Source: Anthracocystis setariae
Taxonomy: Eukaryota; Basidiomycota; Ustilaginomycetes; Ustilaginales; Ustilaginaceae
Length of the DNA: 64,000 nucleotides
Direction of reading: 5' to 3'
NCBI GenBank assembly: GCA_928724745.1
Contig: CAKMXJ010000032.1
Location: 1,302,001-1,366,000 of the forward strand
Within the stretch, counting starts at the first letter, position 1. The number at the start of each line of letters is the position of its first letter. The notes under the pieces were generated by a model. That model searched no databases, had not been told where the DNA came from, and saw only the letters and a program-made list of their open reading frames with translations. The position numbers and the translations under genes were made by a program. This document shows positions 3,301-20,926 of this stretch, piece by piece.

Positions 3301-4098
3301 TGTTGGAACACGGGTTCCATTTGTCGTCTCACACTTGGAGCATTTCACCCTTCGGCAATAAACCCGCCGTCGGGTTTTGTAACACGCATGCGGGTTCGCG
3401 TTTTATTTACCGGATTTGGACAACCACGGAGTATTCACAAAACCAACCGAAACTCACACACGTCCCCAAGACACACGATTCAAGACAGGAGGTCCGAAAC
3501 ATCATCTCAAAACCCGCGGTCGGGGTTTAATATTTCCGGATGCGTCCTCGAATAGAAAGCACGGATCCCCCCTCAATTCGACTAGAAGGAAGACCCCACA
3601 GCAAAAGACTGGTGCCAACGACCAAGTAAAGGGACCACGCTATAGACACCATAACATCCATCAAGAAACGTTCAGTGCGAACACAAGGAAGCATCATCGT
3701 GGACTCAACATGTATATAAACGCCTCTTTGTCACGACTCGTTTAGTGTCTTTGGAATACATCGAATCTTTCCCCCATTTACTCTTACCATACCTTCTCTC
3801 CGACAACTCGTCGAGTAGTCATCAAAGTACTTATAGTATTTATCGTTCAAGCTTCCTACCTCTGCGAAGACGACGTGAGCGTACGAAACCCGACGTGGAT
3901 CTTTGGAATAACAACAAAGATAACGTTCGGATATCCTAAGACTTCCGGGATTCTAACAAACCCGCAGTTTGTCAGAACCCGACGTCGGGATTGATCACCC
4001 GACGCCTACTTCCGTAAGTCGCGCTCAAAAGCCATAATTAACCACTTATTCTTGGCTTTGCCGTAAGGCCGTCATTTCTCATTTGCTACTCTTTCACA
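3301..4098 (+). repeat. 5' LTR of the first copia element
   Basis: 798 bp, TG...CA ends, same sequence as 20129-20926. It contains a TATATAAA box at 3713-3720 and three copies of the palindrome AACCCGACGTCGGGTT or close variants (3361, 3511, 3976). Open frames seen inside it are identical in both LTRs and have no coding features. Confidence 0.95.
3713..3720 (+). promoter_or_regulatory. TATA box of the copia 5' LTR promoter
   Basis: TATATAAA in the middle of the LTR, the expected position for the U3 promoter that drives genomic RNA. The same box is at 20541-20548 in the 3' LTR. The transcription start, and so the U3/R boundary, would lie some 25-35 bases downstream; I cannot fix it from sequence alone. 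Confidence 0.6.
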
Positions 4099-4110
4099 GG
4101 TTATGAGCCC
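4099..4110 (+). other. Primer binding site, half tRNA-iMet type, overlapping the gag-pol start codon
   Basis: GGTTATGAGCCC directly abuts the LTR end. It is complementary to the anticodon-stem region of initiator tRNA-Met (GGGCTCATAACC), the half-tRNA primer known from Drosophila copia and Ty5-type elements. The ATG in the middle (4103-4105) is also the first codon of gag-pol. The second copia element at 59347-59358 has exactly the same 12 bases. Confidence 0.85.
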
Positions 4111-7100
4111 AAAGCCTGCTGGAAACTCGAACGATATATACTTGAATACTCGATCCCGCTCTCGAGTCGATTCGATCACCGGAGAACACGAAAACCCCGA
4201 AAGAAATTTACCGAACCCGACGACGGGTCCCGAATACACCGAAGAAATCATGCAATCCATCGACGGGGTCCCGCATAATTCCCCCGGATTGCCGAAATTG
4301 ACACAGGCACGCGACTATTACCAATGGAAGGACCAATGCATCGACATTCTTATGCAAAAGGGTGCCCGAATCTATGGAATCATTAAGGGGACTCTACCCC
4401 GGCCTGAAGCCTCTGACCCCAAGCACGGAGAATGGATTAACGCCAACTTTACCGCTTGCGGCATGCTACGAAGCAGTCTCTCAAGCGAGATCAAACACAC
4501 TATCGCGGACCTCGAAGACGCGCACACAATCTGGAAAACCCTCGAAGAACGGTTCGCTAAAGCCATGAAATGGCAACTCGAGGAAATGGAGACGGAGCTC
4601 AACAGTCTTAAGCAAGATAGACAAACCATCGACGGATTCGTCAGCCGAATCACCGAACTGTCAGACCAGCTGACCATGGCAGGCATTACAATTAGCTTCA
4701 ACAAGAAGTACAGCGTACTAATGAAGGGTCTCCGCAAGGAATATGATAACATCCGAGCACAAATCGAGGAGACCTACCGAGCACGCCGAGAGACAAGCGA
4801 AATGATCGTCCAAAGGGGCGACAACGAAGTCGAGACCCTGGTTGTCGAGAGTGCCGTCATTAATGAGAAGGTCGAGCTCGACAATATCGTTACCCGCCTG
4901 CGAAGCGAGGAATTGCGCCTTGGTATCAACGTTCAGGGCATGCACCAGCGAACCCGGGTCGGGTCATCGGCATACTATGCCGGACAAGAAAACAAACGGA
5001 AGGGTCAACGAAACCCGAAGCGAAACTCCAAGACGAAGCCGAAAACGCCAATCGAGAAGATCACTTGCTTCAATTGTCAAGAAAAGGGGCACTATGCGAA
5101 CAAATGCCCGAAACCCAAGAACCCGACGTCGGGTTCCCAACCGAACATCAAAACTGGTGAACCCGGGCGCGATAACGTCTACTCCGCCAGTGAGTTCACA
5201 CACCCGCGGTCAACAATGTGGCTAATGGACTCGGGTGCCAGTCGACACATCTGTTGTAACAAGACTCTATTCCGGGATCTCAAACTAGGCGTGTCAATGC
5301 GACCCATCTGGGTAGCAAACGAAGTTCCGGTCAAAATCGAAGGACTCGGCACAGTGGACCTCGAAGTCAACATCGGACGAGGAAAAACGAACAAGATCAC
5401 ACTGTCGAACGTGGCTTACATACCATCCTTCGGCGTCAACCTCCTCTCCACAGGAGTGATGAGGAAGAAGGTAGAAATAGTCACAAACGACCGTGAAACC
5501 ATCGCCCGAACGACAGACGGCAGAATTACATGCAGAGGCGTCCACATTGGACCCCTCACGTATGTCGACCAAGTCGGCACCGACTTTGCAGGAATGGCAG
5601 CCGAACACGAGGCCAACACCACGAACTGGCATAAACGCCTCGGTCACCCTGGTCAAGCACGCTTGGAAGAGATTGCGAAGGTCGTTCCCCAAGTAACTCT
5701 CAATCCACGCACACCCGCGAAGTGCGGGACGTGCCAGATCGGGAAATCGCATAAACAGCCGTTTTCTCGAAACCCGACGTCGGGTTCCACAAAACCCCTG
5801 GAACTTGTACACACCGACGTCGTGGGCCCAATGCCCGACGAAACTCCTCAAGGCCACCGATACGCTGTCACATTCATCGACGACTTCTCAAGATTCACCG
5901 TCGCTTTCCTACTCACAAGGAAGAGTGAGGTGTACGGCCACTTCTTGGAGTACAAAACCTTGATGGAAAAGCAAACCGGCCAGTTAATTAAAAGAGTCAG
6001 GTCGGACAACGGAGGCGAATACACGAGTAAAGAACTTGCAGAGCTACTTCGAGGAAATGGGATCATCCACGAACACACCGCTCCATACACGCCAGAACAG
6101 AACGGGGTTGCAGAACGAATGAATCGCACCCTGTTCGACCTAGCTCGCTGCATGATGATCCAATCATCCTCACCGTATCATATGTGGGGAGACGCTTTCC
6201 TCCACGCGGTCTACCTCAATAACCGATTCCCAACGAAGGGCGCCGGGATGAAGATCCCGATCCAATTGTTGCGTTCCATTACACCTGACTTCTCCCTCGC
6301 TCGAACGTTCGGATGTGCTGCTTGGGCACACGTTCCAGAGGAGAGAAGAGACAAATTGGAGCCCCGCGCGCTGGCATGCGTCTACGTCGGCATCGCTGCA
6401 GGGACGAAGGCCTTCAAGTTATATAACGTGGCCGAAGATCGATATATTACAACGGTCCACGCAACATTCGACGAAGGGACTTTCCCCTTCTCGTATGATA
6501 CCGAAAGTTCGGTGCGGTTTGCAAAACCCGACGTCGGGTTTGCGAACCCGCCCAGAATTAACACAACGACGAAGGAAATCGATATCCCTCCCCAGTCAAA
6601 TCATCAAAACGCCGAACTACAGCAGAACACATCGGAAGACTCAAACAGTTGGCCCTACCTTACTCCAGAGGAAAGGGCGGCAGGAATCCAGACTCCACCT
6701 GGTTCGCCACCAAGTTCACCACGCCTGGACGCGCTCGCAGCCCTCGAAGAAACCGACGGGGTCGAAGACCCGACGTCGGGATTGGACGATTCGGACCCAA
6801 TAGGGCTACTCGATGACGAACCACGAACAATCACCCAGGCTTTCAGAAGACCCGATTGGGAATTGTGGAAACAGGCAGTAAATAGAGAACTTGCGTCGCA
6901 CAAGAACAACAACACCTGGAACCTTGTGACCCCTCCTAAGGACGCAAACGTCATCGGAAGTCGATGGGTCTTCAAGATCAAACGAAAAAGCGATGGAACA
7001 ATTGACAAGTACAAGGCTCGCTTGGTAGCACAAGGATTCGCACAGAAACACGGCATAGACTACGACGAGACCTTCGCACCCGTCGTGAAGCTTGCGACAC

Positions 7101-7411
7101 TCCGTCTGCTCATGATCCTAAGCCTGCAGATTGGATTGACTATCTACCAAATGGATGTCGAAACCGCCTACCTCAATGGCGAAATCGACAAAGATATATA
7201 CATGAGACCGCCACCTCGTGAACCCGACGCAGATCCTCACGCTCCGGGTCTACTTTGCAAGTTAAACAAGTCACTGTACGGTCTCAAACAAGCTGGCCGT
7301 ACTTGGTACCAAAAGGCAGACTCGACTTTGCGGGGAATGGGTTTCAAGCGCAGTAACCACGATTCCGCGCTCTACATCAAAAACCCGACGTCGGGGTCCG
7401 GGACTCACCCG
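4103..7411 (+). pseudogene. Copia gag-pol, 5' part, interrupted by the nested element
   Basis: 1103 codons open from the ATG in the primer site. In order: a UBN2-type Gag; a zinc knuckle CFNCQEKGHYANKC near residue 322; an aspartic protease WLMDSGAS near 373; the integrase zinc region (WHKRLGH, CGTCQIGK) near 509-555; the integrase core with FIDDFSRF, RSDNGGEY and PEQNGVAERMNRT; and the first half of the copia reverse transcriptase (YKARLVAQGF, QMDVETAYLNGEI, LYGLKQA). The frame is broken exactly at 7411 by the chromovirus, and the rest of pol resumes at 17106 in the same codon phase. No stop or frameshift is seen in this part, so the gene was intact when it was hit. Several linkers contain NPTSG or KPDVGF, encoded by the element's palindrome. 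It cannot now give a complete polyprotein. Confidence 0.93.
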
Positions 7412-8523
7412 TGTCAGCGGTCGGGCGCCTGGTGAATAGGCCGATCTTGTTTCGAGAGCGGTGCGGTCCTGTTGGGCTGGGCCGCCGAGTTTGGGTTACG
7501 CGCCTGCGCAACTGGGTAGTACGAGGTGGGTTGCGCAGATACGTCGGCGGTCCGATAACGACGACTGGGCCGCACTCGACTCGACGGCGGTGGAGTGTGG
7601 GCCTCTCAACCGCGTTCGACCTATTACCGACTGACGCTGTTGGCGCTCCGTTCAGCGGCAGCACGGCGTACTCGGTATTACGGTGTGTTAGCTTGGTGTC
7701 CCGCGAGCGCTCTTGACGAGACAGGAAGCTGTTTAGATGATTAGGTGAACACTGGGAGTGATCACCAAGCTGTTACGGCGACGGCTTAGGGCCTGACGTC
7801 CCGATGTCAGCTTGTAGGCAGCGTTTACGCGCTGCGGTGTCGATACCGGTACCGACGAGGTCTAGCTGTTCTCCGACTTGAACGGAGGCACGCGAGGAAG
7901 CTGCAATGCTACTTGTATTGCAACTTACTGAACTAGAAACTGAATGATCGTGAAGACGTCGTTAAGAATAGATACTGAGCTGAAGACTGGTGTTGTAAGA
8001 AGTAGAGTGGATGAGGAGCTCATCCACTTTGAAACAGATGAGGAGACATTAAGTAGGACCGCTCCAAACCCCTATAGCAAGGCCGATCCGGCGCTAGCCT
8101 ATTGTCTAGCTGCACGGCCTGCATGTGTGCTTGTTCTGGCCGTGGTACAGGCGGCTGATCACCTCCAAGCCTCCGAGAGCGCCTGAGATGGTGTCCCCCC
8201 TCTGCTGATCACCTCGAGATGGTGTTGTCGCAATCCGGCGTCTCTGCGATGTCGAACGGCCGCAATCCGACCACTTTGACCAGAAGCGGTTGAAAGAGAC
8301 TCTCTGGGCCGCACTCGCACTGAGAGCGGCTGAAAAGCGTGTTCTCCACCGCTCCACTTATGCCGCCTGGGAGTAACCACACTGCTCAATACGACGCACT
8401 GCCGGCAGCGTACCTCCTCTCCTCCAATGCCAGAGCGGCCGAATTTGACTCTATCAACCGCGCTTGGGCTGACGGCGGCCGTAAAACAAGTTTTCCGCCG
8501 CCTCGGCTTCACCGCCTGTGACA
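7412..8523 (-). repeat. Chromovirus LTR (3' LTR in element orientation)
   Basis: 1112 bp, ends TGTCA and TGACA, paired with 15989-17100. It lies just upstream of the plus-strand accessory gene at 8671, so it could also supply a promoter in that direction. It contains no convincing coding frame: the small open frames present are the same in both LTR copies. Confidence 0.95.
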
Positions 8524-8537
8524 TTACCCCCCTTCCG
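8524..8537 (-). other. Polypurine tract of the chromovirus
   Basis: TTACCCCCCTTCCG on the plus strand is CGGAAGGGGGGTAA on the minus strand, immediately 5' of the 3' LTR in element orientation. This is the usual plus-strand priming site. The relic element at 277-290 has the same TTACCCCCC start. Confidence 0.8.
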
Positions 8538-8670
8538 AGACCCGAGCTCCTGCGAGGCGAAATGAAATGGGCTGCGCATCTTCCAGCCACTGTGAGCTCG
8601 ACGGCAGCTGAGTGATGAGTCTGAAGAACTACCATCAACACTTACAGCCCCCTACCTCGCCATCAGCACC

Positions 8671-10300
8671 ATGGCGCCCAAGAAGAAACCCTCGCCTGCT
8701 CCTGCCATTCCCTCGCGTCGATCGGCTCGGCTCGCCAAAACGCCAGCCGATGCCAATACCCCCTCCGGTTCATCGTCCGGCGCCAGCGACGCCCCGGCAA
8801 CGTCTACCAGTACTGACGCGCTTGCTGTTCTCGTTGTCGCCGCCACCGCTGTTGACGCGCCCGATCCCATGGCTGCTGCTGCCCCTACTGACGCCGTGGC
8901 CGAGACTGCTGCTGCCGCCGCTTCCGACGCCGTGGCCATTACCGCTGTTGTTCCTGCGTCCGACGTCGCGGATGTATCTGCTGTTGCTGCTCCGCCTGGC
9001 GCAGTTGTGGTCCCTACTGGTGGCACTGAGCCAGTCGCCGTGACACCTCCTCAGAGCCGGATTCCATCTGATGGGGTCGGCTCTCTGCTGGTACCGCTGT
9101 TCCTCGGCCCGTCGCGCTCGCCGTCATCAAGAGGTTCGATCTCGCCTCCCCGTTCGCCGGTCTTCGTACGTTCCTCACCGGACCTGTACGCATTTCCCAC
9201 CTCTCCTTCTCGGATTCCGACGTCTCCGGAGAGATTCACGGCCGAGGAGTTGCGTGCGATGACTAGCGCGCAACTCCATGAACACGGGTTGACGCCAGCC
9301 TCGCCCGTGGTTCCCCGCTCGCCTGTCTATGGTGCGGGATTTGACGAGACCGCTGGTCCTGGGCGCAGTGATACGCCTGTGGGATCCTGGGAATCGCCCA
9401 GCCGCCAGTCGCCCGGTCTTGGCCCGTTACTGGGGTCGCCCGGCCGCCGAACGCCTGAGATCGGCCCGCCGCCCATTCGTCGGGCCGAAGACGTGGTACC
9501 GCAACGCACAGGTCCACGCAAGCCTACTTTGGTCGAAATGCTTGAATGGACAGAGCGGTTTACCGCTCCTGCACTGCTTATTGCGATCGTCAACGAGGCC
9601 TGGGACCGCGATTGGCAACTGGACGATGCCGGCAAAGTCTGGTTGCACCGAACCATGGTGCGGCGCTTGACCGAGGGTAGCTCACCATGGCCGAACTACA
9701 GTTGCCAGCACTGTGCCGACTTGGATGTGCCGTAAGTATTGTTCTCGACATAAGTGGTTTGGACAGCACTGACAATTTGCCTTGCCTCTTGTTTATATTA
9801 GATGCTTTCCGGTCACCTATGGCGATCCCACGGGTCCTCGTCCCCGACCCGCAGCCTCGTCATGCTGCCATTGCTTGACGAGCAAGAAGAAGTGTGGCGG
9901 CCGCACGATTTGGCGCGCCACACGTCACGAGTACGTCGGCGATAGCCCGTACACAACGTTGGGAACGCACGAGCGAGCTGTGGTGCGCGCTCACCTGTCG
10001 TACTCTGGTGGTCTTGGTTTGGGTGCGGTGCGTCGTCGCGACCGCCTGGTGGACTGGTACAAGGAGCGATCCTTCCACCTCGACGCTCGCGACGCCTTCT
10101 CAACGGAGGGCACGATCGGGACCCAAGTGCGTGAGACCTTGGCGCGGTACCACCGCGAGAATCGCTCCCTGCTCGGCCAATACCTACCGTGCGAAGTCAT
10201 GGAAGAGGAGCCGAACTTCGAGGGTCTTGGCTGGTTCGTGGAAAGCCGTGGTGACGATGAGGATGAGGTGCGATACCACCGTCCTGAAGTCTTCCGCTAA
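8671..10300 (+). CDS. Chromovirus accessory protein with six-cysteine cluster, antisense to gag-pol, two exons
   Basis: join(8671..9731, 9802..10300), 519 residues. The 70-bp intron runs from GTAAGT at 9732 to TTAG at 9801; splicing restores the frame within the cysteine cluster. The N-terminus is basic (MAPKKKPSP, RRSARLAK) and then alanine/serine/proline-rich to about residue 280. Cysteines at 345, 348, 355, 375, 378 and 385 give C-x2-C-x6-C-x19-C-x2-C-x6-C, identical in spacing to the copia accessory protein at 18702-20048 and close to fungal Zn2Cys6 clusters apart from a longer middle loop. The C-terminal 130 residues are charged and helical with no family I recognise. The gene lies between the 3' LTR and the pol 3' end and converges with pol; only 213 bp separate the two stops. 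A nuclear, nucleic-acid-binding role is inference. Confidence 0.75.
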
Positions 10301-10513
10301 CTGTTGCCTAGCAATTTTAGGTCGTTCCTGTCTATTGGTTGTGCTTGAGAACCTTCTGTATTGGTCGTGATGTTCTTGAACTTGAGAAAAGAGTGTGAAT
10401 GTGTGGCGACGGGTGTCGATGGCGGCTACTAGAATTGGTCACCCACCGCAGTCGCGTCATGGCGGCTGAGTAACCCGCACTGCGCCGCCAAATTATTGAG
10501 CGCGGCTAGGCAG
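10301..10513. other. Convergent 3' region between the accessory gene and chromovirus pol
   Basis: 213 bp separating two convergent stop codons within the chromovirus. It must contain the 3' end of the plus-strand accessory transcript, while the minus-strand genomic RNA runs through it. No gene seen. Confidence 0.5.
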
Positions 10514-13500
10514 CTATTTTGCCTGCCGTCTTTCAGCGCTTCGGAGTCGTCCCCCCCGCTTTTCCTCATACTCCCGAATGAGGTCTGGGCAGGCGAGAAG
10601 CTCCTCATACTCCCAAGACGCTTGCTCCTCCGGGTAGCCTTTCCAGAGTACGTGGTACTGAAGCCTGCCATTGACGGCACGGTGTCCAGTGATAGCCTCG
10701 ACCTCGTACTCGAGGTCTTCGTCGGGCAACGGCGGTACTGCCGCACGCTCTTCCCGTCCAGCTAGTTCGCTGGGTCGCCGCTTTTCAAGCATCGAGACGT
10801 GGAAAACGTCGTGGACACGGAGCGACGTCGGTAACTGGAGGCGGTACGCTCTAATGCCGATACGCTCGACAATGGGGTACGGCCCAGCGAAGCGGGTGTC
10901 GAGCTTGGGACTCGGTCGACGAGTTTTCCAATTGCGTCGATTGACGTAGACGAGCTCACCGACCTTGAACTCGACGTCGAGGCGCTTTTTATTGTACTGT
11001 TCCACCACACGAGTTTGAGCTGATCTAACTTGCTCTTGCAGGTATGCAGTGAGCTCCGCTTCCGAGCGAGCGAACTCAGCTCGTTGCGGGTCGAGCACTC
11101 CAGCACGCTCTGGTACCTCCGGATGCATTTTCGGATTCCACCCGTAGCACGCAAAGAATGGTGAGACGCCGAGACTGCTGTGTACCGCATTGTTGTAGAC
11201 GAACTCGGCATTGGCTAGCAGTGAAGCCCAGTTATCCTGCTCGTAGTTGCAATACATACGAAGGTACTGCTCGACAACTTGATTGACTCGCTCCGTCTGA
11301 CCATCCGTCTGAGGATGGTACGCCGTCGACAACGAGTGCTGAATGGAATGGAACTCAGTGTACCGCTTCCAGACCGCCGAGATAAACTGACGACCGCGGT
11401 CAGAGACGATATGCTCGGGCGTCCCAAACCGGCGGAACACGTGTTGCTGGAGGAGCTCGGCAGTGCGAGCCGATGTGATAGTCTTGACCGTCGGCGTGAG
11501 CACCGCAAGCTTGGTGAGTCGATCGACGACGACAAGAATCGAGTCGTAGCTGTCGGAGAGTGGCAGGCCCTCAATAAAGTCCATGGATACCGACCCCCAT
11601 GGTCTTGAAGGAGTGGCCAACGGCTTGAGCAGACCGTACGGCCGATGACGAGGCGCCTTGTAGCGGGCGCAGACCGGACAGCTCGCTACATAGTCGGCGA
11701 TCCAAGCACGTATTCCCGGCCACCAGTAGTGCCGCTGGGTGAGGGCTAGCGTCGCATCACGACCCGGGTGTCCGGCGGTGATGCCGTCGTGGCACTGTGT
11801 CATCACCATGAAGCGCAGGTGCTCCACCGAGAGTGACTGCTCGCTGACAATCTTGGCCGAGCGTGTGTCACGACGCCCCTGCTTTCCGGCCAGCGTGACC
11901 TTGGGAATGACAAGACGGCCTTCGCGATACCAAAGACCGTCTCTAACTTCGAAGGGCGTGTGCTTGTGGAGCTCTTGGAGCTCCGTGTCGAGCGGTTGGA
12001 AAGTTCGAGCCAGCTCCGGCAGGCCACCCCTCACTATTGCCGCCATGGACGACCGCGGCCGAATAACCTTTGCTAAGCCGCTGTCGGATCCATTTCGGCT
12101 CGGTAACTGATTTTCCAGTAATGCAGTTCCAAAAATGCGGGGGTGGAGGAGCTGCCGTACGTTATGTTCGCGCTCTTTGGCCGACGGCTCCATGTCGCTG
12201 CGTCGTGTCAAGGAGTCGGGCTCGCCAGCCTTGTCTCCTGGTCGGTACTGAACAACGAAATCGAAGTCAGCCAGTAACACGGCCCATCGAGCCTGTCGAC
12301 CACTAATACGACGTTGCACCGTGAAATACTTGAGCGCCTCGTGATCCGAGAGCACGGCGAATTGAGACGGGAGCCCCGCCAGCATATGCCGCCACTGGTG
12401 GAGGCAGGCGACGATGGCGAGGAGCTCTTTGTCGTGAATCTCATAGTTCCTTTCGGCAGACGTCATCTTGCGTGAATAGAAGGCTACGGGATGCCATCTC
12501 TTTTCCGTCTCCTGCTTGAGGACGCCGGCGATGGCAAAGTCGCTGGCGTCGGTCTCGAGGCGGGTTGGCTTGTGATAGTCGTAGTGTCGTAGTACTCCGG
12601 CCGTCGTGAAAGCCTCGATGAGCTTGTGGAAGGCATCAGCCGCCTCCTCCGGCAGCTGGAACTTCTTGAACCGCTCCGTAGGCTTGACGAGCGATGTGAG
12701 AGGCTTCGAGATGCGAGCGAAGTGAGAGATGAACCGGCGATAGAAGTTTGCGAACCCCAAGAAACGCTGGATGTCATGAATCGACTGGGGCAGCGGCCAT
12801 TCCTTGATGGTTCGCACTTTCTCTTGGTCCATCTCGATGCCTCCCGGTGTGATGACGTAGCCCAGAAACTCGACGGTGTCCGTGTGGAAGATGCACTTCA
12901 ACAGCTTGGCGAAGAGCCGATTCACTTTCAGACGCCGCAATACCTCACGGACGTGTTCGACGTGTTCTTCCTCGTTGTTGCTGAAGATGAGGAAATCGTC
13001 GAGATACACGACGACGTAGACGCCGATGATGTCACGGAAGATGCTGTTGACGAGCGACTGGAAGTGCGACGGTGCGTTTGCCAGCCCGAAAGGCATGACC
13101 AGGTACTCATACAGGCCGAGCTGGGTACCAAACGCCGTCTTCCATTCATCACCGTCAGCTATGCGTACCAGGTTGTAAGCCGCCTTGAGATCGAGCTTAC
13201 TGAACACCTTAGCATTCCTCAGTAAGAACAGTTGCTCCTCGATGAGCGGCAGCGGCGCTCGATTCTTGACCGTGATCTCGTTGAGCCCTCGGTAGTCAAC
13301 ACAGAGGCGGAGGCCGCCGTCCTTCTTCGGTACAAACAGCACTGGCGAGCGCGCTGGACTCTTTGACGGCCGAATGAACCCCTTTGCGAGGTTCTCGTCG
13401 AGGTACTTGCGAAGTTCCTCCATCTCCTTAGGCCCCTTGAGATAGAGTGGGCCCTGAGGAGGTTTGGATCCCGGCAGGAGTTCGATGGGTAAGTCAGTGC

Positions 13501-14281
13501 TGGTACGAGGAGGTAACTTGTCGGCCTCGACTTCACTAAATACCGCCTCGAGATCCCGATATTGCTCTGGGATCGACACTGGAGTAAGTGACTCCGGCTC
13601 CACCTCGATCTCAATGCCCTTGTCTTTGCCGGTCGGGACGAAGCCGAAGCTAGGCAGCGATGAGGGTGGAGCATCGATCAGCATAATGCCAATCGGTCCG
13701 TCCTGATAGGACGCTTGGACGAGCTGCTGGAATGAGACGAACTCGTTTCCGTGGACAGTGATAACCGGCTCGTTAGAAGGCACGGCGCGGCTGGTAACAC
13801 TATGTGACGGGCCGAAGTCGTGTTTAACGCGGCCCAATGGATCCCGCTGCGCCGCGGTGAATTCAATTCGGCCCGACGTCCAGTCGATCCTCGGCTGAAG
13901 TGTGCGAAGTTCCTGGTAGCCGATAATGAGATCGAAATCGCTAATGTCCGCGACATAGGCCTGCAACGGCGGTAAGGATTGCTCACCGATGTTGACCGTC
14001 AGCGTTGCATCGTGCGTGATGGATAGGCGATGGCCGCTGACGCCGTGGACCGCGGTGGGGTGGGGAGTGGTCTTGATGTTAATACAATATGTACGGGCGA
14101 AAGCACTTGAGAGAAGGGACAGTGAGGCTCCGGTGTCGGCCAGGATGCGAGCCGGGCACCCGTTGATGGTGCCGGTGACTTCGAGGACCGAGGGAAGAGA
14201 TTTGGTCGAGAAACACAATGCACAGTTACGATATATACAGGGTGATGGCGACGGCGGTTGTAGGGCAAGACAAGCCATCAT
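10514..14281 (-). CDS. pol: Chromovirus Pol polyprotein (protease, reverse transcriptase, RNase H, integrase, chromodomain)
   Basis: 1255 residues, intact. Protease ILADTGAS with the DTG at 49-51; Ty3-type reverse transcriptase with VYLDDFLIFS near residue 425; RNase H starting LETDASDFA; integrase zinc-binding region (GHPGRDAT then CPVCARYK) near 830-870; integrase core with MDFIEGLP, IVSDRGRQF and YHPQTDGQTERVNQ; and a C-terminal chromodomain at about 1191-1244 (YEVEAI, YHVLWKGYP, ASWE, DLIREYE). The chromodomain places it among chromoviruses and would direct integration by binding modified histone tails. Pol is in a different frame from gag. Its ATG (14281-14279) overlaps a TGA of the extended gag frame as ATGA, and an in-frame stop at 14312-14314 lies just upstream, so translation by reinitiation is more likely than frameshifting from far upstream. 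Confidence 0.95.
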   Translation of the reverse strand: MMACLALQPPSPSPCIYRNCALCFSTKSLPSVLEVTGTINGCPARILADTGASLSLLSSAFARTYCINIKTTPHPTAVHGVSGHRLSITHDATLTVNIGEQSLPPLQAYVADISDFDLIIGYQELRTLQPRIDWTSGRIEFTAAQRDPLGRVKHDFGPSHSVTSRAVPSNEPVITVHGNEFVSFQQLVQASYQDGPIGIMLIDAPPSSLPSFGFVPTGKDKGIEIEVEPESLTPVSIPEQYRDLEAVFSEVEADKLPPRTSTDLPIELLPGSKPPQGPLYLKGPKEMEELRKYLDENLAKGFIRPSKSPARSPVLFVPKKDGGLRLCVDYRGLNEITVKNRAPLPLIEEQLFLLRNAKVFSKLDLKAAYNLVRIADGDEWKTAFGTQLGLYEYLVMPFGLANAPSHFQSLVNSIFRDIIGVYVVVYLDDFLIFSNNEEEHVEHVREVLRRLKVNRLFAKLLKCIFHTDTVEFLGYVITPGGIEMDQEKVRTIKEWPLPQSIHDIQRFLGFANFYRRFISHFARISKPLTSLVKPTERFKKFQLPEEAADAFHKLIEAFTTAGVLRHYDYHKPTRLETDASDFAIAGVLKQETEKRWHPVAFYSRKMTSAERNYEIHDKELLAIVACLHQWRHMLAGLPSQFAVLSDHEALKYFTVQRRISGRQARWAVLLADFDFVVQYRPGDKAGEPDSLTRRSDMEPSAKEREHNVRQLLHPRIFGTALLENQLPSRNGSDSGLAKVIRPRSSMAAIVRGGLPELARTFQPLDTELQELHKHTPFEVRDGLWYREGRLVIPKVTLAGKQGRRDTRSAKIVSEQSLSVEHLRFMVMTQCHDGITAGHPGRDATLALTQRHYWWPGIRAWIADYVASCPVCARYKAPRHRPYGLLKPLATPSRPWGSVSMDFIEGLPLSDSYDSILVVVDRLTKLAVLTPTVKTITSARTAELLQQHVFRRFGTPEHIVSDRGRQFISAVWKRYTEFHSIQHSLSTAYHPQTDGQTERVNQVVEQYLRMYCNYEQDNWASLLANAEFVYNNAVHSSLGVSPFFACYGWNPKMHPEVPERAGVLDPQRAEFARSEAELTAYLQEQVRSAQTRVVEQYNKKRLDVEFKVGELVYVNRRNWKTRRPSPKLDTRFAGPYPIVERIGIRAYRLQLPTSLRVHDVFHVSMLEKRRPSELAGREERAAVPPLPDEDLEYEVEAITGHRAVNGRLQYHVLWKGYPEEQASWEYEELLACPDLIREYEEKRGGRLRSAERRQAK

Positions 14282-14436
14282 TCGGTTGTCCCACGCCCAT
14301 TTCCCTCGTCGTCAGGATCACCATCGATTCGGTCGTCGTCGGCAAGAGCTGGAAGATCTTCATAATCAAACGCCTCCTCTTCCTCTTGATCTTCGACGTC
14401 CTCTTGTGCCACGACGTCCTCTTGTGCCACATAGGC
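14281..14436 (-). other. Acidic 52-codon continuation of the gag frame between the gag stop and pol
   Basis: After the gag TGA (14439-14437) the same frame stays open for 52 codons, rich in Glu and Asp (for example EDQEEEEAFDYEDL), and then stops with a TGA that overlaps the pol ATG. It contains an 18-bp tandem duplication (14401-14436) encoding VAQEDV twice. The composition and the precise stop-start overlap suggest it was, or is, the true C-terminus of Gag, reached by readthrough or ended early by a point change to TGA. Confidence 0.55.
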
Positions 14437-15951
14437 TCAAGGTCCCGGCCGTCGTGGCGCTCCGGTGGCCGTCTCACGGGCCGGCTGAGGGCAGTCACGC
14501 ACCCAATGACCCTCTTTACCACATCGCTTGCACGTGGTGGCGCCGAAAGTCGTCGGCGAGCGATCGTATACGACGGGCAGGCGTTGGGCCAGATGGGGCG
14601 GTAACGGCCGAGGCCGCGCTGGGGAAGGGGTAGCTGCAGCCGGTCGTGCCTCCACGGCGGACGGTGCTATGACCCGCCCGGCCGCTTTTGCACTGTCGGC
14701 GGTCGGGGCATGAGCTCTTCCAGCCGCCGAGGGGAAATCGTACCGCAGTGAGTTTGAGGTCGGCTGAGCGAGGCTCGCTGCACCGCCTTGGTACGTCTGT
14801 TGCGCTAAGACCCGGTTGCGATCCAAATCTTCCACCTCGCGGTAGAACTCCCATAACGTCTTCGGCGACGTACGCTCGAATTGACGCTGGAGAGTTGGAG
14901 TCAAACCCCGCCGGAAAAGGTGAAGTTTGAGGTGCTCGTCACTCATGCCAGCTCGCTCCTCGAGGGTCCTGAACGCTTCGACATACTCGCTTGCAGCGCC
15001 TGGCTTGTCGTTCGCGAGGCGCAGAGCATAGAGTTTATTGAAAGCGTCCAGCTTCTCGTCGTGAACTCCGTAGAGTTGCTTGAGCCGGTTGACGAAAAGA
15101 GTCCAGTCGCCGAACAGTGCCCCCGACTGGGATGGGTCGGCGCGTAGCTTCGACCGGTACCAAGTGAGAGCCCGGCCCTTGAGATGCGGTCCCAGGAACT
15201 GGATCCTCTTGCGGCCGTCGGACATCTCTTGATACCGGAACCAGGCCTCGACCTGAATGAGCGACATCTCCAGGTCGTTCTCTTGCCAGTCGGGGAAATC
15301 AAGCTTCGGGTCGCTCTTGTTAGTATTACGCTCGGAGGGTGCTTCCCGTGCCGTCATGGTGGAATGGTCCCAGGCGGGGCGTCGGCCGGTGGAGGTCGAG
15401 TACAAGTCCTCCTGACTGTACTCATCGTTCCAGCGTAGGGCTGACGCCACTGGTCGACGGGCAGGGGTAGAGCTACCCAGCGGAGCAGAGCGCCGAGGGT
15501 CATCATGCATGCTGTATGATCTCTCCTCGTGCGCTTCGAGTCCATGGGCGACGGCGGCGACCTCCGGCTCACCCCCTCGGCGTAGAGCTGGCTTGATCAG
15601 CTCTCTGAGGTCTGCGATCTCGGCCTTGAGCGCGAGGATCTCCTCCTGGTGCGCCGTTAGTGGTCGCGACGAAGCTGGGATAGCTGTGAAAGGCGTGGGC
15701 GACGGCTTGGAGCCGGTCGCCTGGTCCATGAGTGTGTAAAGCTTCTCCTGGAAGCGGAGTCGGTCTTGGCTCTCTTTCAGCATGGCCTCCTGACGACTGG
15801 TTTCGTAAGCCATGCGTTGGGTATGGACCTCCTTCATCTGAAGTCTTATATCCTCAATTAAGCCTTGCAGCAATGGTTCTGGGTTCGCTGCAGGAGGCGA
15901 CGAAGCCCGACTGCGAGGAGTACTTCCTCGCGGCGCGGCTGCGTCGGACAT
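14437..15951 (-). CDS. gag: Chromovirus Gag
   Basis: 504 residues. A charged, coiled-coil-like N-terminal part precedes a retrotransposon gag core around residues 210-330 (PDWQENDLEMSLIQ, WFRYQEM, LKGRALTWYRSKL), then a basic proline-rich tail with one CCHC zinc knuckle, CKRCGKEGHWVRDC, near 480-493. Gag forms the virus-like particle and binds genomic RNA through the knuckle. The ATG is only about 37 bases from the LTR end, so the leader is very short. The frame ends in TGA only 11 residues after the knuckle, and an acidic continuation follows in frame (see 14281-14436). Confidence 0.93.
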   Translation of the reverse strand: MSDAAAPRGSTPRSRASSPPAANPEPLLQGLIEDIRLQMKEVHTQRMAYETSRQEAMLKESQDRLRFQEKLYTLMDQATGSKPSPTPFTAIPASSRPLTAHQEEILALKAEIADLRELIKPALRRGGEPEVAAVAHGLEAHEERSYSMHDDPRRSAPLGSSTPARRPVASALRWNDEYSQEDLYSTSTGRRPAWDHSTMTAREAPSERNTNKSDPKLDFPDWQENDLEMSLIQVEAWFRYQEMSDGRKRIQFLGPHLKGRALTWYRSKLRADPSQSGALFGDWTLFVNRLKQLYGVHDEKLDAFNKLYALRLANDKPGAASEYVEAFRTLEERAGMSDEHLKLHLFRRGLTPTLQRQFERTSPKTLWEFYREVEDLDRNRVLAQQTYQGGAASLAQPTSNSLRYDFPSAAGRAHAPTADSAKAAGRVIAPSAVEARPAAATPSPARPRPLPPHLAQRLPVVYDRSPTTFGATTCKRCGKEGHWVRDCPQPARETATGAPRRPGP

Positions 15952-15968
15952 GTCGAGTACGGGGCGCT

Positions 15969-15988
15969 GCTTGAACGATCCACTCTAA
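15969..15988 (-). other. Candidate primer binding site of the chromovirus
   Basis: The minus-strand sequence next to the 5' LTR reads TTAGAGTGGATCGTTCAAGC. A TGG that could pair with the 3' CCA of a tRNA begins six bases from the LTR edge. I cannot name the tRNA; self-priming, known for some chromoviruses of the Tf1 type, is an alternative. Confidence 0.35.
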
Positions 15989-17100
15989 TGTCAGCGGTCG
16001 GGCGCCTGGTGAATAGGCCGATCTTGTTTCGAGAGCGGTGCGGTCCTGTTGGGCTGGGCCGCCGAGTTTGGGTTACGCGCCTGCGCAACTGGGTAGTACG
16101 AGGTGGGTTGCGCAGATACGTCGGCGGTCCGATAACGACGACTGGGCCGCACTCGACTCGACGGCGGTGGAGTGTGGGCCTCTCAACCGCGTTCGACCTA
16201 TTACCGACTGACGCTGTTGGCGCTCCGTTCAGCGGCAGCACGGCGTACTCGGTATTACGGTGTGTTAGCTTGGTGTCCCGCGAGCGCTCTTGACGAGACA
16301 GGAAGCTGTTTAGATGATTAGGTGAACACTGGGAGTGATCACCAAGCTGTTACGGCGACGGCTTAGGGCCTGACGTCCCGATGTCAGCTTGTAGGCAGCG
16401 TTTACGCGCTGCGGTGTCGATACCGGTACCGACGAGGTCTAGCTGTTCTCCGACTTGAACGGAGGCACGCGAGGAAGCTGCAATGCTACTTGTATTGCAA
16501 CTTACTGAACTAGAAACTGAATGATCGTGAAGACGTCGTTAAGAATAGATACTGAGCTGAAGACTGGTGTTGTAAGAAGTAGAGTGGATGAGGAGCTCAT
16601 CCACTTTGAAACAGATGAGGAGACATTAAGTAGGACCGCTCCAAACCCCTATAGCAAGGCCGATCCGGCGCTAGCCTATTGTCTAGCTGCACGGCCTGCA
16701 TGTGTGCTTGTTCTGGCCGTGGTACAGGCGGCTGATCACCTCCAAGCCTCCGAGAGCGCCTGAGATGGTGTCCCCCCTCTGCTGATCACCTCGAGATGGT
16801 GTTGTCGCGATCCGGCGTCTCTGCGATGTCGAACGGCCGCAATCCGACCACTTTGACCAGAAGCGGTTGAAAGAGACTCTCTGGGCCGCACTCGCACTGA
16901 GAGCGGCTGAAAAGCGTGTTCTCCACCGCTCCACTTATGCCGCCTGGGAGTAACCACACTGCTCAATACGACGCACTGCCGGCAGCGTACCTCCTCTCCT
17001 CCAATGCCAGAGCGGCCGAATTTGACTCTATCAACCGCGCTTGGGCTGACGGCGGCCGTAAAACAAGTTTTCCGCCGCCTCGGCTTCACCGCCTGTGACA
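15989..17100 (-). repeat. Chromovirus LTR (5' LTR in element orientation)
   Basis: 1112 bp, matching 7412-8523 except for one visible substitution at 16809. It contains the promoter for the minus-strand gag-pol RNA. Its right end abuts the ACCCG duplication (17101-17105), after which copia pol resumes. Confidence 0.95.
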
Positions 17101-17105
17101 ACCCG

Positions 17106-18104
17106 CTCGTCCTCACAATCTACGTGGATGACATACTAATCTTCGCCCGCTCTAAACCCCTCGCCGAAAACGTAATGAACGACCTCAGGAAGCACTTCAA
17201 GATGACGGGTGGAGAACAGCTTGACTACATTCTAGGCATTCAAGTGAAACAATCGCCGGACTCCATACACTTGTCCCAAACCAGCTACATCCGACGGCTC
17301 CTTCTGACTTACGGACTCGAATCTGCCAACATCGTACACACTCCGCTCAACCCGAGTGCCAGTCTGGCAGATGGAGACCTCCTCTCGCCGTCCGAACACT
17401 CCAAATACAGGAGCATTGTTGGCCAAATCCTTTACATTGCAACATGTACGAGGCCAGACATCAGCTACGCTGTACAGAGACTCAGCCGCGAACTTGCAAA
17501 CCCGCACTCTAATGCTATGGTTCAGGCTAAACATCTGTTACGTTACCTCAAGGGAACGGAAACCCACGGGCTCGAATATAAACCCGCCGTCGGGTTTCCA
17601 ATTCACGACGTGAATCTTGATTTCGGATTGCTATTTCAGACATTCACCGACGCAGATCACGCGGGGGACACACTAACTTCGAGATCAACGTCGGGAATTG
17701 TCAACACGGTCAATACTATGCCATACAGCTGGATTTCCAAGCTACAGTCCATCATCACGGACTCTACAACATACGCCGAATATGTAGCTATGGCCGAAGC
17801 AGCGAAGGAAATCACATGGTGCCGATGGCTAGTCGAAGAACTCGGCCTGAAAGTCAAGAACCCGACGCAACTTATGGTGGATAACCGCGCAGCCATCGAA
17901 CTTGCCAAGGAACCCAAGTTTCACAACAGGACCAAGCACTTTCGCCTCAAGTATCACATTACCCGATCATACCAAGCAGAGGGATTACTGATTGTGAAGC
18001 CAGTCTCAACAACGAACCAACTAGCTGACATTCTCACAAAAGCATTGGAAAAGAACAAAGTTCAAGTCAATCGCGAGAATCTCCACATACTTCCCACGAA
18101 TTAG
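17106..18104 (+). pseudogene. Copia pol, 3' part (reverse transcriptase C-terminus and RNase H)
   Basis: 332 codons that continue the frame broken at 7411, in the same phase once the ACCCG duplication is discounted. It starts with the reverse transcriptase active site (LTIYVDDILIF), followed by conserved copia blocks (GLESANIVHTPLNP, YRSIVGQILYIATCTRPDI) and RNase H (FTDADHAGD, STTYAEYVAMAEAAKEI, ADILTKAL). No stop or frameshift is seen, so the damage to this gene is the nested insertion alone. An open frame from 17004 runs out of the chromovirus LTR into this segment, giving a chimeric 366-codon frame, which is probably accidental. Confidence 0.93.
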
Positions 18105-18701
18105 GAAAACCCGACGACGGGTTTCTCCTTTCATCGATTAATCATCAAGATCCGCACATGAACACCCACAACCCGACGCGTTTTACCAGAAAACATCGAA
18201 AAATCAAGAAAACAACACGAAAGCTACCCGAACGAGACCAACACAGCGAAATAACAATAAAAGCTCATAAAATAAATGGACCCTGCATGAACGCGCGACC
18301 CGAGATATAGCAACTCTCATTAGACCCCAAAACCCGACGTCGGGATTTCAACTCCGACGCCAAACCTACAAGATCTAGCTCTCGAACTACAAAACCACAA
18401 TAAATCACCACCAACACCGCAAACCACTCATATGTCACATTGCGCAATCACAGCCACCGAGATGAAACGCGGCGCATCCGACAAGACTCTCTATCGGGTC
18501 ATAAAACCCGACGACTGGCCCTCACTACATGCTGCGCCAACTGCGGAACAGAACGAACAAAGCGTTACCATACAAAGGATTGGGATAGAGGCGCGGACCC
18601 AAGAAAGAGTCCTCAGCACGCCCTCTCTCACACTTCCTCCTCACACTTCTTTCACCACCATCACGACCGACGCCAACCACGTCGACATACAACAAGAAGC
18701 A
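18105..18701 (+). other. Copia interval between pol and the accessory gene
   Basis: About 600 bp with no independent gene. It holds two palindrome copies (18108-18123 and 18331-18346) and several AACCCGACG half sites, A/T-rich ATAAAA-like motifs (18254, 18500) and a CT-rich stretch before 18702. The look is that of a promoter plus 5' leader, which suggests the accessory gene may have its own transcript. The frame of the accessory gene is open back to an ATG at 18432. Confidence 0.45.
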
Positions 18702-20048
18702 ATGGGTAAAAGACTTTCCCAAGCTAAGCGAGATGCTCTAGCCAAGGCCACCGAGGCCCGGCGCAAGAAGAGCTCTCACACAGGCGATACCAACAACAGT
18801 GACGCCACAACCGTCGCCAACGTCGACATTAACATGGACGACGTCACCGCCTCTCCCTCCCTTCAAGAAGGTCAAGACGAGGCAATGCAACTCGATAATG
18901 CTCAACCCCCGCCGCCGACTAACCGGGAGTCTCCATCTCCTGACGTCTTGCCCTCTGTCAACGATGACATGGCCATTGACAACACACAAGATAACATTGA
19001 CAACGAACAACCTCCATCATCCCCCACCGTTGCTCAAGACGTGGACCCCCAAGACGCCGACAACGACAGCACCACCGTCAGAAATCAGGACGGTAACGAT
19101 CGACCCTCGCAAACCGCGCCCAGCACCGCCGGCCACTCCCTCCGTCTCCGCAGCAGACCACTCCCTGCGCTGAGACCATCCGTCACAACAATTCGGACCG
19201 ACGACGCGCTGGAAGAAAGGGGCCTCTTCCTTCATTCCGATGATTCCCTCGTCGATGGAGACTACGAAGTAGACCCTAACTTCCACCGTAACGACGACGA
19301 CGAGGACGAGGGACAGAGTCGGCGCACTCGAGGACGCGCTACCACCACCATCTACCCCTCCCGAGCAATCGAGCTTGTGGAATCCACTTCCTCGCCCCCA
19401 CGCCGCCGAACAGTGGGCGCCGCTGCTGCCGCCGTTGCAGCTTCTGAAGCCAACGTCGAGGCCGACGAAGCACAACCCGCCGGCGGAACAGCAGAAAGTC
19501 CGCTCCCCTCTCACCTCGCGTGGTCGGGACCGCTAACACCTGGAGTCCCATCGTCGAAACAGAAGCGTTTCGTTGTTCCAGCCGGAGTAGTGCTGAATTC
19601 ACGTCGGCACTTCACTCCGCTGGACCAAGTACCCCATCCCGACCTCAAGATTGTCGAACCCGGCTGCCAGGAGTGTCGTCTCATCGGAGTGCATTGCTCC
19701 TTTGGCGCCGGGGTTAACCACCAAGGCAAGAAGAGAGACCCCGCCCGCGGGTCTTGTGATCATTGTATGATCATCTCGAAGCCCTGCCGAGGGTTGGGGT
19801 ACGAGGGCAAGAAAACACAAAAGATTGCCCTCGTCGACAGTCTCCGTGGCAAGCTCACTGAAGCCAAGGAGATCTGTATTGACACGCTCGTTGCCTCCCG
19901 AACAGGGAAACCACCTCCGAAGAGGTGGGATCCCTCGTACTTCATCAAGATCCTGGGCCAAATCGAGGAGTTCGTCGATAAACGCGAAGCACCCGGTCCG
20001 CAAAATAGGTACGTCCAAGCGACCAGTTCCAGCACTTCGGGTCCTTAA
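18702..20048 (+). CDS. Copia accessory protein with Zn2Cys6-like cysteine cluster, 3' of pol
   Basis: 448 residues from the ATG at 18702 (context AGCAATGG); an in-frame ATG at 18432 would add 90 residues, but that part looks like an untranslated CT-rich leader. The N-terminus is basic (MGKRLSQAKRDALAKATEAR), followed by a long Asp/Ser/Pro/Gln-rich stretch, and then cysteines at 322, 325, 332, 352, 355 and 362: C-x2-C-x6-C-x19-C-x2-C-x6-C. A short helical C-terminus follows (SYFIKILGQIEEFVDKRE). Intronless and in the same direction as pol, where an envelope gene would sit, but without signal peptide or membrane segment, so it is not an Env. The spacing matches the chromovirus accessory protein exactly. 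Role unknown; binding to the element's CCG/CGG palindromes is a testable guess. It stayed intact although pol is disrupted. Confidence 0.7.
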   Translation: MGKRLSQAKRDALAKATEARRKKSSHTGDTNNSDATTVANVDINMDDVTASPSLQEGQDEAMQLDNAQPPPPTNRESPSPDVLPSVNDDMAIDNTQDNIDNEQPPSSPTVAQDVDPQDADNDSTTVRNQDGNDRPSQTAPSTAGHSLRLRSRPLPALRPSVTTIRTDDALEERGLFLHSDDSLVDGDYEVDPNFHRNDDDEDEGQSRRTRGRATTTIYPSRAIELVESTSSPPRRRTVGAAAAAVAASEANVEADEAQPAGGTAESPLPSHLAWSGPLTPGVPSSKQKRFVVPAGVVLNSRRHFTPLDQVPHPDLKIVEPGCQECRLIGVHCSFGAGVNHQGKKRDPARGSCDHCMIISKPCRGLGYEGKKTQKIALVDSLRGKLTEAKEICIDTLVASRTGKPPPKRWDPSYFIKILGQIEEFVDKREAPGPQNRYVQATSSSTSGP

Positions 20049-20119
20049 GACCCGACGTAAATTTCATCTCATTCCATAGTAATGATCAATGTGTGCGTGA
20101 AGTGTGTGAAGTGCTCAAC

Positions 20120-20128
20120 GAGGGGGAC
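20120..20128 (+). other. Polypurine tract of the first copia element
   Basis: GAGGGGGAC directly before the 3' LTR. The second copia element has GAGGGGGAG at the same place, so the two elements share this priming signal although their LTRs differ. Confidence 0.8.
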
Positions 20129-20926
20129 TGTTGGAACACGGGTTCCATTTGTCGTCTCACACTTGGAGCATTTCACCCTTCGGCAATAAACCCGCCGTCG
20201 GGTTTTGTAACACGCATGCGGGTTCGCGTTTTATTTACCGGATTTGGACAACCACGGAGTATTCACAAAACCAACCGAAACTCACACACGTCCCCAAGAC
20301 ACACGATTCAAGACAGGAGGTCCGAAACATCATCTCAAAACCCGCGGTCGGGGTTTAATATTTCCGGATGCGTCCTCGAATAGAAAGCACGGATCCCCCC
20401 TCAATTCGACTAGAAGGAAGACCCCACAGCAAAAGACTGGTGCCAACGACCAAGTAAAGGGACCACGCTATAGACACCATAACATCCATCAAGAAACGTT
20501 CAGTGCGAACACAAGGAAGCATCATCGTGGACTCAACATGTATATAAACGCCTCTTTGTCACGACTCGTTTAGTGTCTTTGGAATACATCGAATCTTTCC
20601 CCCATTTACTCTTACCATACCTTCTCTCCGACAACTCGTCGAGTAGTCATCAAAGTACTTATAGTATTTATCGTTCAAGCTTCCTACCTCTGCGAAGACG
20701 ACGTGAGCGTACGAAACCCGACGTGGATCTTTGGAATAACAACAAAGATAACGTTCGGATATCCTAAGACTTCCGGGATTCTAACAAACCCGCAGTTTGT
20801 CAGAACCCGACGTCGGGATTGATCACCCGACGCCTACTTCCGTAAGTCGCGCTCAAAAGCCATAATTAACCACTTATTCTTGGCTTTGCCGTAAGGCCGT
20901 CATTTCTCATTTGCTACTCTTTCACA
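20129..20926 (+). repeat. 3' LTR of the first copia element
   Basis: 798 bp, no difference seen from 3301-4098, followed by the CTACC duplication. Its TATA box at 20541-20548 points toward the URC1-like gene 0.5 kb downstream, so it could influence that gene's transcription. Confidence 0.95.

Follow-up and report, generated by a model that had tools for sequence, protein, structure and literature searches.

A 64,000-nt stretch of the Anthracocystis setariae genome (contig CAKMXJ010000032.1; C28:1302001-1366000; hereafter the window) contains a copia-type long terminal repeat (LTR) retrotransposon, here assigned to family I, in which an accessory gene for a six-cysteine protein is accompanied by an array of 18 palindromic sites. 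Two related copia families of the same genome carry accessory genes of this kind together with arrays built on words of their own, and sites recur at corresponding places within the coding sequence of pol. On balance, we lean towards the interpretation that the accessory protein is a zinc-cluster homodimer that recognizes the array of its own family and sustains expression of the element, in a manner similar to VANC of Arabidopsis. A more specific form of this proposal is put forward only tentatively: the element-coded factor would use a permuted zinc cluster to read an operator array in its own gag-pol, and the operators would be rewritten in step with it as a private address of the family. 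Both proposals were drawn from comparisons of sequences, and the genome searched comprised 21.47 Mb in 36 contigs.

Palindrome arrays of the copia families

The array was first seen by word counting as an excess of AAACCCG and CCCGACG in the copia LTR. The family I element had 18 matches to AAACCCGACGTCGGGTTT (up to 5 mismatches), located in the LTRs, in the spacer between pol and the accessory gene, and in gag-pol, with none in the accessory gene. These were 18 of the 20 such matches in the window, the others being at 2481 and 56715. All 13 exact matches to CCCGNCGNCGGG in the window also fell within the copia element (3363 to 20806), with none in the chromovirus (9.7 kb, minus strand) that is nested inside this element and splits its gag-pol. 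The parts of the element were as follows.

3300..4098, + strand: copia family I 5' LTR, 799 nt, 100% identical to 20128-20926
4103..7411, + strand: copia gag-pol, first part (zinc knuckle, integrase, RVT_2)
17101..18104, + strand: copia pol, remainder beyond the nested insertion
18702..20048, + strand: copia accessory gene, 448 amino acids, sense, in the pol/3' LTR interval
19665..19787, + strand: six-cysteine cluster of the copia accessory protein, C-x2-C-x6-C-x19-C-x2-C-x6-C
20128..20926, + strand: copia family I 3' LTR, identical pair with the 5' LTR

The 18 sites, with their mismatches to AAACCCGACGTCGGGTTT, were distributed as follows.

3360..3377: palindrome site, 5' LTR, 1 mismatch
3510..3527: palindrome site, 5' LTR, 3 mismatches
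3886..3903: half-site, 5' LTR, 4 mismatches
3975..3992: palindrome site, 5' LTR, 2 mismatches
4213..4230: palindrome site a, gag-pol, 4 mismatches (alignment column taken from copy L028)
5119..5136: palindrome site b, gag-pol, 2 mismatches
5770..5787: palindrome site c, pol, column common to families I, II and III, 1 mismatch
6524..6541: palindrome site d, pol, 0 mismatches
6766..6783: palindrome site e, pol, column common to the three families, 2 mismatches
7381..7398: palindrome site f, pol, column common to the three families, 2 mismatches
17580..17597: palindrome site g, pol, 1 mismatch
18107..18124: palindrome site, pol-accessory spacer, 1 mismatch
18330..18347: palindrome site, pol-accessory spacer, 1 mismatch
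18504..18521: degenerate site, pol-accessory spacer, 5 mismatches
20188..20205: palindrome site, 3' LTR, 1 mismatch
20338..20355: palindrome site, 3' LTR, 3 mismatches
20714..20731: half-site, 3' LTR, 4 mismatches
20803..20820: palindrome site, 3' LTR, 2 mismatches

Among 14 copies, CCCGACG was present in the spacer and LTR of all 14 and in pol of the 13 that reach pol, but was absent from every accessory gene; one accessory gene (L027) contained a single instance of the looser palindrome pattern. When 13 family I LTRs were aligned, the site columns matched the window copy at 0.94 and the other columns at 0.80. In copy L028, positions 3518-3543 hold site d plus an overlapping second palindrome, CGGGTTCGCGAACCCG, as a double site, with a one-base difference in the window copy.

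The sampled copia loci comprised family I (the window element), family II (L039-L043) and family III (L044 and L045), all with a 19-residue loop in the cysteine cluster, family IV (L047 and L048) with a 16-residue loop, and a fifth lineage, family V (L053, reverse complement of 1380-2297), whose 306-amino-acid protein has a loop of 15. Families II and III had words of their own, AACACTCAGTACTGAGTGTT and AACACGCAACGTTGCGTGTT, respectively; the three words are alike in plan, and CCG/CGG triplets occur only in that of family I. Each locus contained 14-20 sites of its own word in family I (four copies), 9-12 in family II (four copies), and 12 and 18 in the two family III loci, compared with means of 0.2-0.6 in family I shuffles and 0 in those of families II and III (five mononucleotide shuffles each); words of the other families occurred 0-4 times per locus. 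Over the whole genome, the words of families I, II and III were matched 252, 84 and 41 times, against 16, 0 and 2 for reversed-pattern controls. Site density (families I, II and III; 6, 4 and 2 copies) was 1.60, 1.35 and 1.97 per kb in pol, 4.91, 3.94 and 5.88 in the spacer, and 4.63, 3.33 and 5.00 in the 3' flank with the LTR, and fell to 0.12, 0 and 0 in the accessory gene. In family IV, a less strict word may be centered on TACCGACGTCGGTA (13 and 12 sites at up to 3 mismatches; 0.3 and 0.2 after shuffling), with no general palindrome excess and with a match of this type inside the accessory gene.

The sites within pol exceeded what the encoded protein predicts. The exact 12-bp palindrome occurred five times per pol in each of four family I copies, compared with 0.06-0.14 (maximum 1-2) in synonymous-codon shuffles. 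At up to 6 mismatches, pol contained 6 sites in family II and 6-7 in family III, compared with 0.6-0.8 and 1.4-2.1 in shuffles. The palindrome word is read in different frames, as NPTSGS at some places and as KPDVGF or KPAVGF elsewhere, indicating that the DNA and not the peptide is kept.

Pol was 66-72% identical among families I, II and III, and six sites lay at corresponding places across the three. Alignment columns 612, 976 and 1187 held sites in all three families, and the others lay within 5-15 columns of each other (the family II b-site was 15 columns away from that of family I). Compared with random columns, 7 of 8 sites of family III (p <= 0.00005) and 5 of 6 of family II (p 0.00015) had a family I site no more than 12 columns away, in a test that omits the 6-mismatch sites (two each in I, II and III). 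The 16-bp cores were alike at 0.82 within families (I 0.93, II 0.75, III 0.77) and at 0.46 between families at corresponding sites; the within-family value is inflated because sites were picked for their resemblance to a consensus typed by eye, a procedure that counts against this comparison but leaves the positions unaffected. The flanks of the sites showed the reverse relation (0.30 within families, 0.45 between). Concerted change of the cores is a prediction of selection for one trans-acting reader per family.

Six-cysteine accessory genes

The cluster of the copia accessory protein (P0001; open reading frame, or ORF, 18702-20048) reads CQECRLIGVHC-19-CDHCMIISKPC. It was the sole contiguous six-cysteine match in the six frames of the window (pattern C..C, 5-7, C, 4-40, C..C, 5-8, C). 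The product of the spliced chromovirus gene contains CQHCADLDVPC-19-CCHCLTSKKKC, so that the identical C-x2-C-x6-C-x19-C-x2-C-x6-C spacing reported by the first-pass annotation was seen in both translated proteins. The chromovirus gene also occupies the interval between pol and the 3' LTR, but runs antisense to its own gag-pol, and its protein is presumably made from an antisense spliced transcript. The antisense orientation, the nesting of the elements and the palindrome array were absent from that annotation. Features of the chromovirus and of the second copia element were as follows.

7412..8523, - strand: chromovirus 3' LTR, 1112 nt, 99.9% identical to 15989-17100
8671..9731, + strand: chromovirus accessory gene exon 1, antisense to gag-pol
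9732..9801, + strand: intron of that gene, 70 nt, GT-AG, inferred from sequence
9802..10300, + strand: chromovirus accessory gene exon 2
9703..9895, + strand: chromovirus six-cysteine cluster, interrupted by the intron
10514..14281, - strand: chromovirus pol with chromodomain (RVT_1, rve, Chromo)
14437..15951, - strand: chromovirus gag (Ty3_capsid, Retrotrans_gag, zinc knuckle)
15989..17100, - strand: chromovirus 5' LTR
53616..54902, - strand: accessory ORF of the second copia element, C-x2-C-x11-C-x10-C-x2-C-x6-C

A Tc1/mariner-type transposase (60372-61433; DDE_3, HTH_SB, Tc3 HTH) adjoins the second copia element, and elsewhere in the window a PF00172 match (47413-47517, - strand) adjoins a likely host transcription factor gene (44650-47211, - strand, weak Fungal_trans).

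The copia accessory protein had 59 matches in the genome. Loop lengths were 19 residues in 22 cases, 16 in two, 15 in one and 10 in one, in a survey of 26 ORFs picked by pattern (loops of 14-22) plus the 53616-54902 form, which missed longer and shorter loops. In the family V protein, the second half of the cluster is lysine-rich (CFWCYKKKRPC; also at L033:4457-4777). A P0001-type match, or one of the second copia type (P0002), lay 0.4-2.1 kb downstream on the same strand of 52 of the 81 RVT_2 matches in the genome; no copia reverse transcriptase (RT) match preceded the other 13 of the 65 accessory matches. Of the 29 RT matches that lack a P0001- or P0002-type gene, the one at L053 belongs to an element with a cluster gene of its own. 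Capture of the gene from the host, proposed earlier, thus found no support, with 52 of the 65 accessory matches sitting 0.4-2.1 kb behind a copia RT match and the other 13 inspected in part. For the chromovirus gene, 27 genome matches were listed and 12 copies (the window copy included) were fetched, in all of which the spliced frame was open, the spacing was unchanged and the intron measured 68-73 nt.

In a Pfam scan of whole proteins, P0001, P0003 (the gene at 832-2418) and both chromovirus exons were without a family at E <= 1, and P0002 gave four weak unrelated matches below the cut-off. Searches for homologues elsewhere (protein searches and a viral-contig scan) were empty, in collections possibly poor in fungal proteins.

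The suggested resemblance to the fungal Zn2Cys6 cluster stood in part. The six cysteines form two C-x2-C-x6-C halves, as in fungal Zn2Cys6 factors, and PF00172 matched 10 of 12 copia domains, all below the cut-off (best E 0.016). For the P0001 domain the score was 13.5 bits (E 0.082), and the gathering cut-off of 21 bits was not reached; the loop of 19 residues is a further difference from these factors, and the chromovirus domain had no PF00172 match. CCG/CGG inverted repeats are typical of many Zn2Cys6 sites; the family I word shares them and the words of families II and III do not. The canonical domain has a basic half first, a glycine half second and a short loop. In one alignment, the first half of the P0001 cluster matched PF00172 positions 18-31, which is the second half of the canonical domain, and the order of the halves may therefore be swapped. 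The second halves alone did not match Zn_clus in any of five pieces. A permuted zinc cluster, supported by the first half and unsupported by the second, is accordingly possible. A single-sequence AlphaFold model of the copia domain had a confidence score (pLDDT) of 39, and comparisons with solved structures, one of them for a host Zn2Cys6 domain, gave matches at chance level only.

The accessory genes were under purifying selection. The first-pass annotation had singled out a ratio of nonsynonymous to synonymous divergence (dN/dS) near 1 across copies as the sign of frames that are not conserved; the ratios were well below 1 in both the copia and the chromovirus genes. The family I accessory frame was open in 12 of 13 copies (L033 has one stop), and dS was 0.52-1.67 with dN/dS of 0.14-0.29 among these 13 copies, omitting four near-identical pairs (L034/L036/L037; window copy/L046) whose ratios (0.06 to 1.67) were unstable and were given no weight. 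In the copia C-terminal domain, median dN was 0.095 and dS 1.16 (21 pairs of seven copies), compared with 0.41 and 1.12 in the N-terminal part of the same seven-copy subset. The C-terminal 230 residues of the chromovirus protein (dN 0.032, dS 0.70; 66 pairs) were constrained similarly to chromovirus pol (dN about 0.036, dS about 0.63), the pol median including 11 of 66 pairs with a mis-extracted L017 tail that are to be ignored and that leave the accessory medians unaffected.

In family I pol, dS was only 0.04-0.28 (8 of the 13 copies compared, L038 left out). L029 and L046 were much closer in pol (divergence 0.043) than in the accessory gene (0.963), and the reverse held for the window copy and L046 (0.199 and 0.015, respectively). 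Family I gag-pol (4103-7411, L028-L046) was a mosaic in which the synonymous divergence of a pair dropped from segment to segment, from about 0.2 to values near 0.01. These patterns indicate that copia elements recombine and that old functional accessory lineages persist on a homogenized gag-pol. Two further ideas were examined and set aside. Palindromes as recombination hotspots received no support (22 pol breakpoint intervals, 192 nt away compared with 255 nt for random positions, p 0.25), and coupling of accessory type to LTR type was weak.

The copia and chromovirus clusters are likely related by shared descent or exchange. A profile of copia families I-IV scored 42.7 against that of the chromovirus, and the best of 200 shuffles with the cysteines fixed scored 33.2, which upheld the view that two retrotransposon superfamilies carry the same kind of non-structural gene. 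Family I alone also exceeded all 200 shuffles (39.4; best shuffle 37.7), and the alignment ran without gaps through the 19-residue loop (46 columns, 35% identity). The rival explanation, that the identical spacing reflects convergence onto a common zinc-cluster geometry with no shared descent or exchange, is a serious possibility despite these scores, since the likeness is limited to the 46 columns surrounding the cluster, orientation and intron differ between the genes, and the chromovirus profile holds little diversity (effective sequence number, Neff, 1.0). Taken singly, families II and IV hardly matched the chromovirus (probability 1.0% and 2.4%), and family III was equalled by 1 of 200 shuffles. 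Shared descent or exchange is likely for the chromovirus and copia families I-IV only, as it was here that the score lay above all shuffles. The earlier claim had extended to four proteins of the window, and for the other two it found no convincing support: 7 of 200 shuffles scored as well as the second copia ORF, and P0003, then taken for a relic, was equalled by 160 of 200 in the comparison with copia and by 46 of 200 in that with the chromovirus. For the family V cluster the figure was 57 of 200.

P0003 proved to be a high-copy protein; of its 68 matches in the genome, about 29 reached >=70% identity and the others were at 32-58%. At L050 and L051, a P0003-type gene follows, in antisense orientation, an integrase that carries a chromodomain (rve, SH3_Tf2-1, Chromo), and these elements form a second chromovirus lineage with an antisense accessory gene and a looser cysteine cluster.

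The proposed reader of the arrays

In the mechanism that we favor, the accessory protein would enter the nucleus by virtue of its basic N-terminus, fold its zinc cluster and dimerize, and the homodimer would bind the palindromes of its own family (AAACCCGACGTCGGGTTT in family I). Own-family copies coated in this way would escape host silencing or gain transcription, and other families would be unaffected. As the specificity of the protein drifted, the array would follow in each lineage. Because the sites extend over the whole body of the element and are not restricted to the promoter, anti-silencing is favored over simple promoter activation. The regulatory or anti-silencing role proposed in the first-pass annotation thus gained indirect support from the family-specific arrays, and the chromovirus protein is likely to be a nucleic-acid-binding regulator as well. 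The genome contained one Piwi match and four DNA_methylase stretches as possible silencing parts, suggesting that RNA silencing and cytosine methylation may operate.

C11:421877-422797; C19:538724-540152; C22:426197; C11:576894: Piwi and DNA_methylase loci

Several observations weigh against this interpretation. The link between protein and site consists of co-occurrence and co-divergence, and pol, too, differs between the families. The distances of LTR, pol and accessory gene correlated weakly (0.08-0.46). The chromovirus has the cluster without an array, and no array was found in the second copia element or in family V (2.5 kb) either; the chromovirus LTR word CTGGGCCGC (three times, p 0.02) was marginal, and CGAAGTC in family V (8 times; shuffle maximum 6) is not palindromic. 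In family I pol, 7 sites at up to 5 mismatches compared with about 4 (maximum 7) in synonymous shuffles, a weak count because the word is already contained in the encoded peptide; in family III pol, matches to the word of family I were as frequent as matches to that of family III (6-7 at 6 mismatches). Among LTR 18-mers, the four LTR sites ranked no higher than between the 56th and 89th percentiles. The words of families II and III (ACACTCA, ACACGCA) are unlike classic Zn2Cys6 sites. A same-family gene was within 6 kb of 27 of the first 50 family I matches, 25 of the first 50 of family II and 11 of 41 of family III, and 16 of the 23 remaining family I matches among the first 50 listed lay near P0003-like genes.

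Solo LTRs may be the source of other off-family word matches. CCCGNCGNCGGG occurred a few times near P0003-like genes (C1:489069, C2:193550, C3:918527, C8:457057 and others), perhaps by chance, the DNA being rich in GC, or perhaps through a reader common to both. At L050 (P0003-type), CGCGCGC-like words occurred 22 times (shuffle maximum 13), as GC-rich coding repeats or another array.

An alternative is that the palindromes act in the genomic RNA, in packaging, dimerization or Rev-like export, with Gag or the accessory protein as their reader. Most of the sites in gag-pol, the spacer and the LTRs fall within the genomic RNA, and their arms of 6-8 bp with a variable center could form hairpins. 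The main support for such a role, and a further point against binding to DNA, was that lone half-sites of family I lay preferentially on the sense strand (4-8 forward and 1 reverse in six copies). Compensated changes were in excess at position 5 in family II (11 compared with 8.2) and at the central pair in family III (7 compared with 3.1), with no significance test applied. Against this, covariation was little overall. Among 54 unique family I sites the two arms varied independently, with 7 outer compensated changes compared with 6.7 expected and, at core positions 4-7, no double changes compared with about 1.1 expected, which is the expectation for two half-sites under a DNA-bound dimer. Packaging would also seem to need few sites and not eighteen. 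We therefore regard a role in RNA as unlikely.

It is likewise improbable, in our view, that the arrays are read by another factor, such as a host transcription factor or the integrase, and that the accessory protein is unrelated to them. The divergence of pol between families (66-72% identity) would fit such a reader, binding of the array by the accessory protein is an inference, and the words of families II and III are atypical for Zn2Cys6. However, word and accessory protein are both particular to each of the three families, and the accessory domain of families II and III is 39% identical to that of family I where pol is 66% identical. Among the elements examined, arrays were present only in copia families that share the wider domain (clearly in I-III, more loosely in IV), and a host factor is not expected to differ by element family. 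That the accessory gene is a captured host gene and a functionless passenger, for which the many Zn2Cys6 genes of the genome (78 PF00172 matches) might speak, is highly improbable in view of purifying selection at dS near 1 and its constant position behind 52 of 81 copia RT matches.

Comparison with known systems

The proposed reader of the copia arrays invites comparison with VANDALs, which are DNA transposons. Sequence-specific self-recognition by a transposon has been described for Arabidopsis VANDAL, in which VANC, according to the accessible parts of the reports, is an element-coded DNA-binding anti-silencing protein (PMC5735166, PMC10398659). The same parts describe VANC motifs as short, family-specific sequences of about nine bases in one orientation, mainly in non-coding tandem repeats, which are dense in their own family, rare elsewhere and diverge together with the protein; this local recognition spares the host (PMC5735166, PMC10398659). 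The copia arrays are similar in that a family-specific motif is enriched in its own elements, the motif side alone having been seen here. They are unlike the VANC motifs, as portrayed in those parts, in being 18-20-bp palindromes dispersed at fixed places inside gag-pol. Because the motifs are neither in tandem nor confined to non-coding DNA (3.3-5.9 per kb in LTR and spacer, 1.4-2.0 in pol), we did not file the copia system as a member of VANC.

The accessory gene is an additional ORF at the pol/3' LTR position, is present in many copies and shows coding constraint. Such additional ORFs (aORFs), including the antisense aORF-3R of Grande, RIRE2 and Retand, are described for plant LTR retrotransposons and for Boty of Botrytis (PMC7264820, PMC11963269), and the copia accessory gene is a new case of an aORF at this position. 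As far as the available text of these reports goes, the genes are alike in their place between pol and the 3' LTR, in sense or antisense orientation, in being kept in most copies and in a suspected nuclear or regulatory role, and they differ in that a zinc cluster and a cognate site array were not found described there (PMC7264820, PMC11963269). Retand, according to the same text, has family-specific tandem repeats, and its proteins carry TRP28 (PF04195) (PMC7264820, PMC11963269); neither chromovirus exon matched TRP28 at E <= 1. The consulted part of a report on bdelloid rotifers describes ORF3 modules common to unrelated retroelements through modular exchange (PMC5408684). As here, the same type of accessory ORF occurs in different retroelement classes, with the difference that the shared ORFs given there are enzymes, GDSL esterase and DEDDy exonuclease (PMC5408684). 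A literature search, with subscription journals mostly outside its coverage, found no published case of this kind.

Taken at this strength, a fungal LTR retrotransposon lineage appears, by analogy, to follow a VANDAL-like logic with its recognition words placed in protein-coding sequence. With at least three families and their corresponding sites, these elements offer a comparative system for following how a DNA-binding protein and its target sites, dozens in number, change jointly, and they provide a concrete candidate for studies of silencing and anti-silencing in fungi. If our interpretation is true, DNA words would shape an enzyme, with short stretches of pol differing between families because the word differs. 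A retrotransposon would then tell self from non-self, each copia family recognizing its own copies within one genome.

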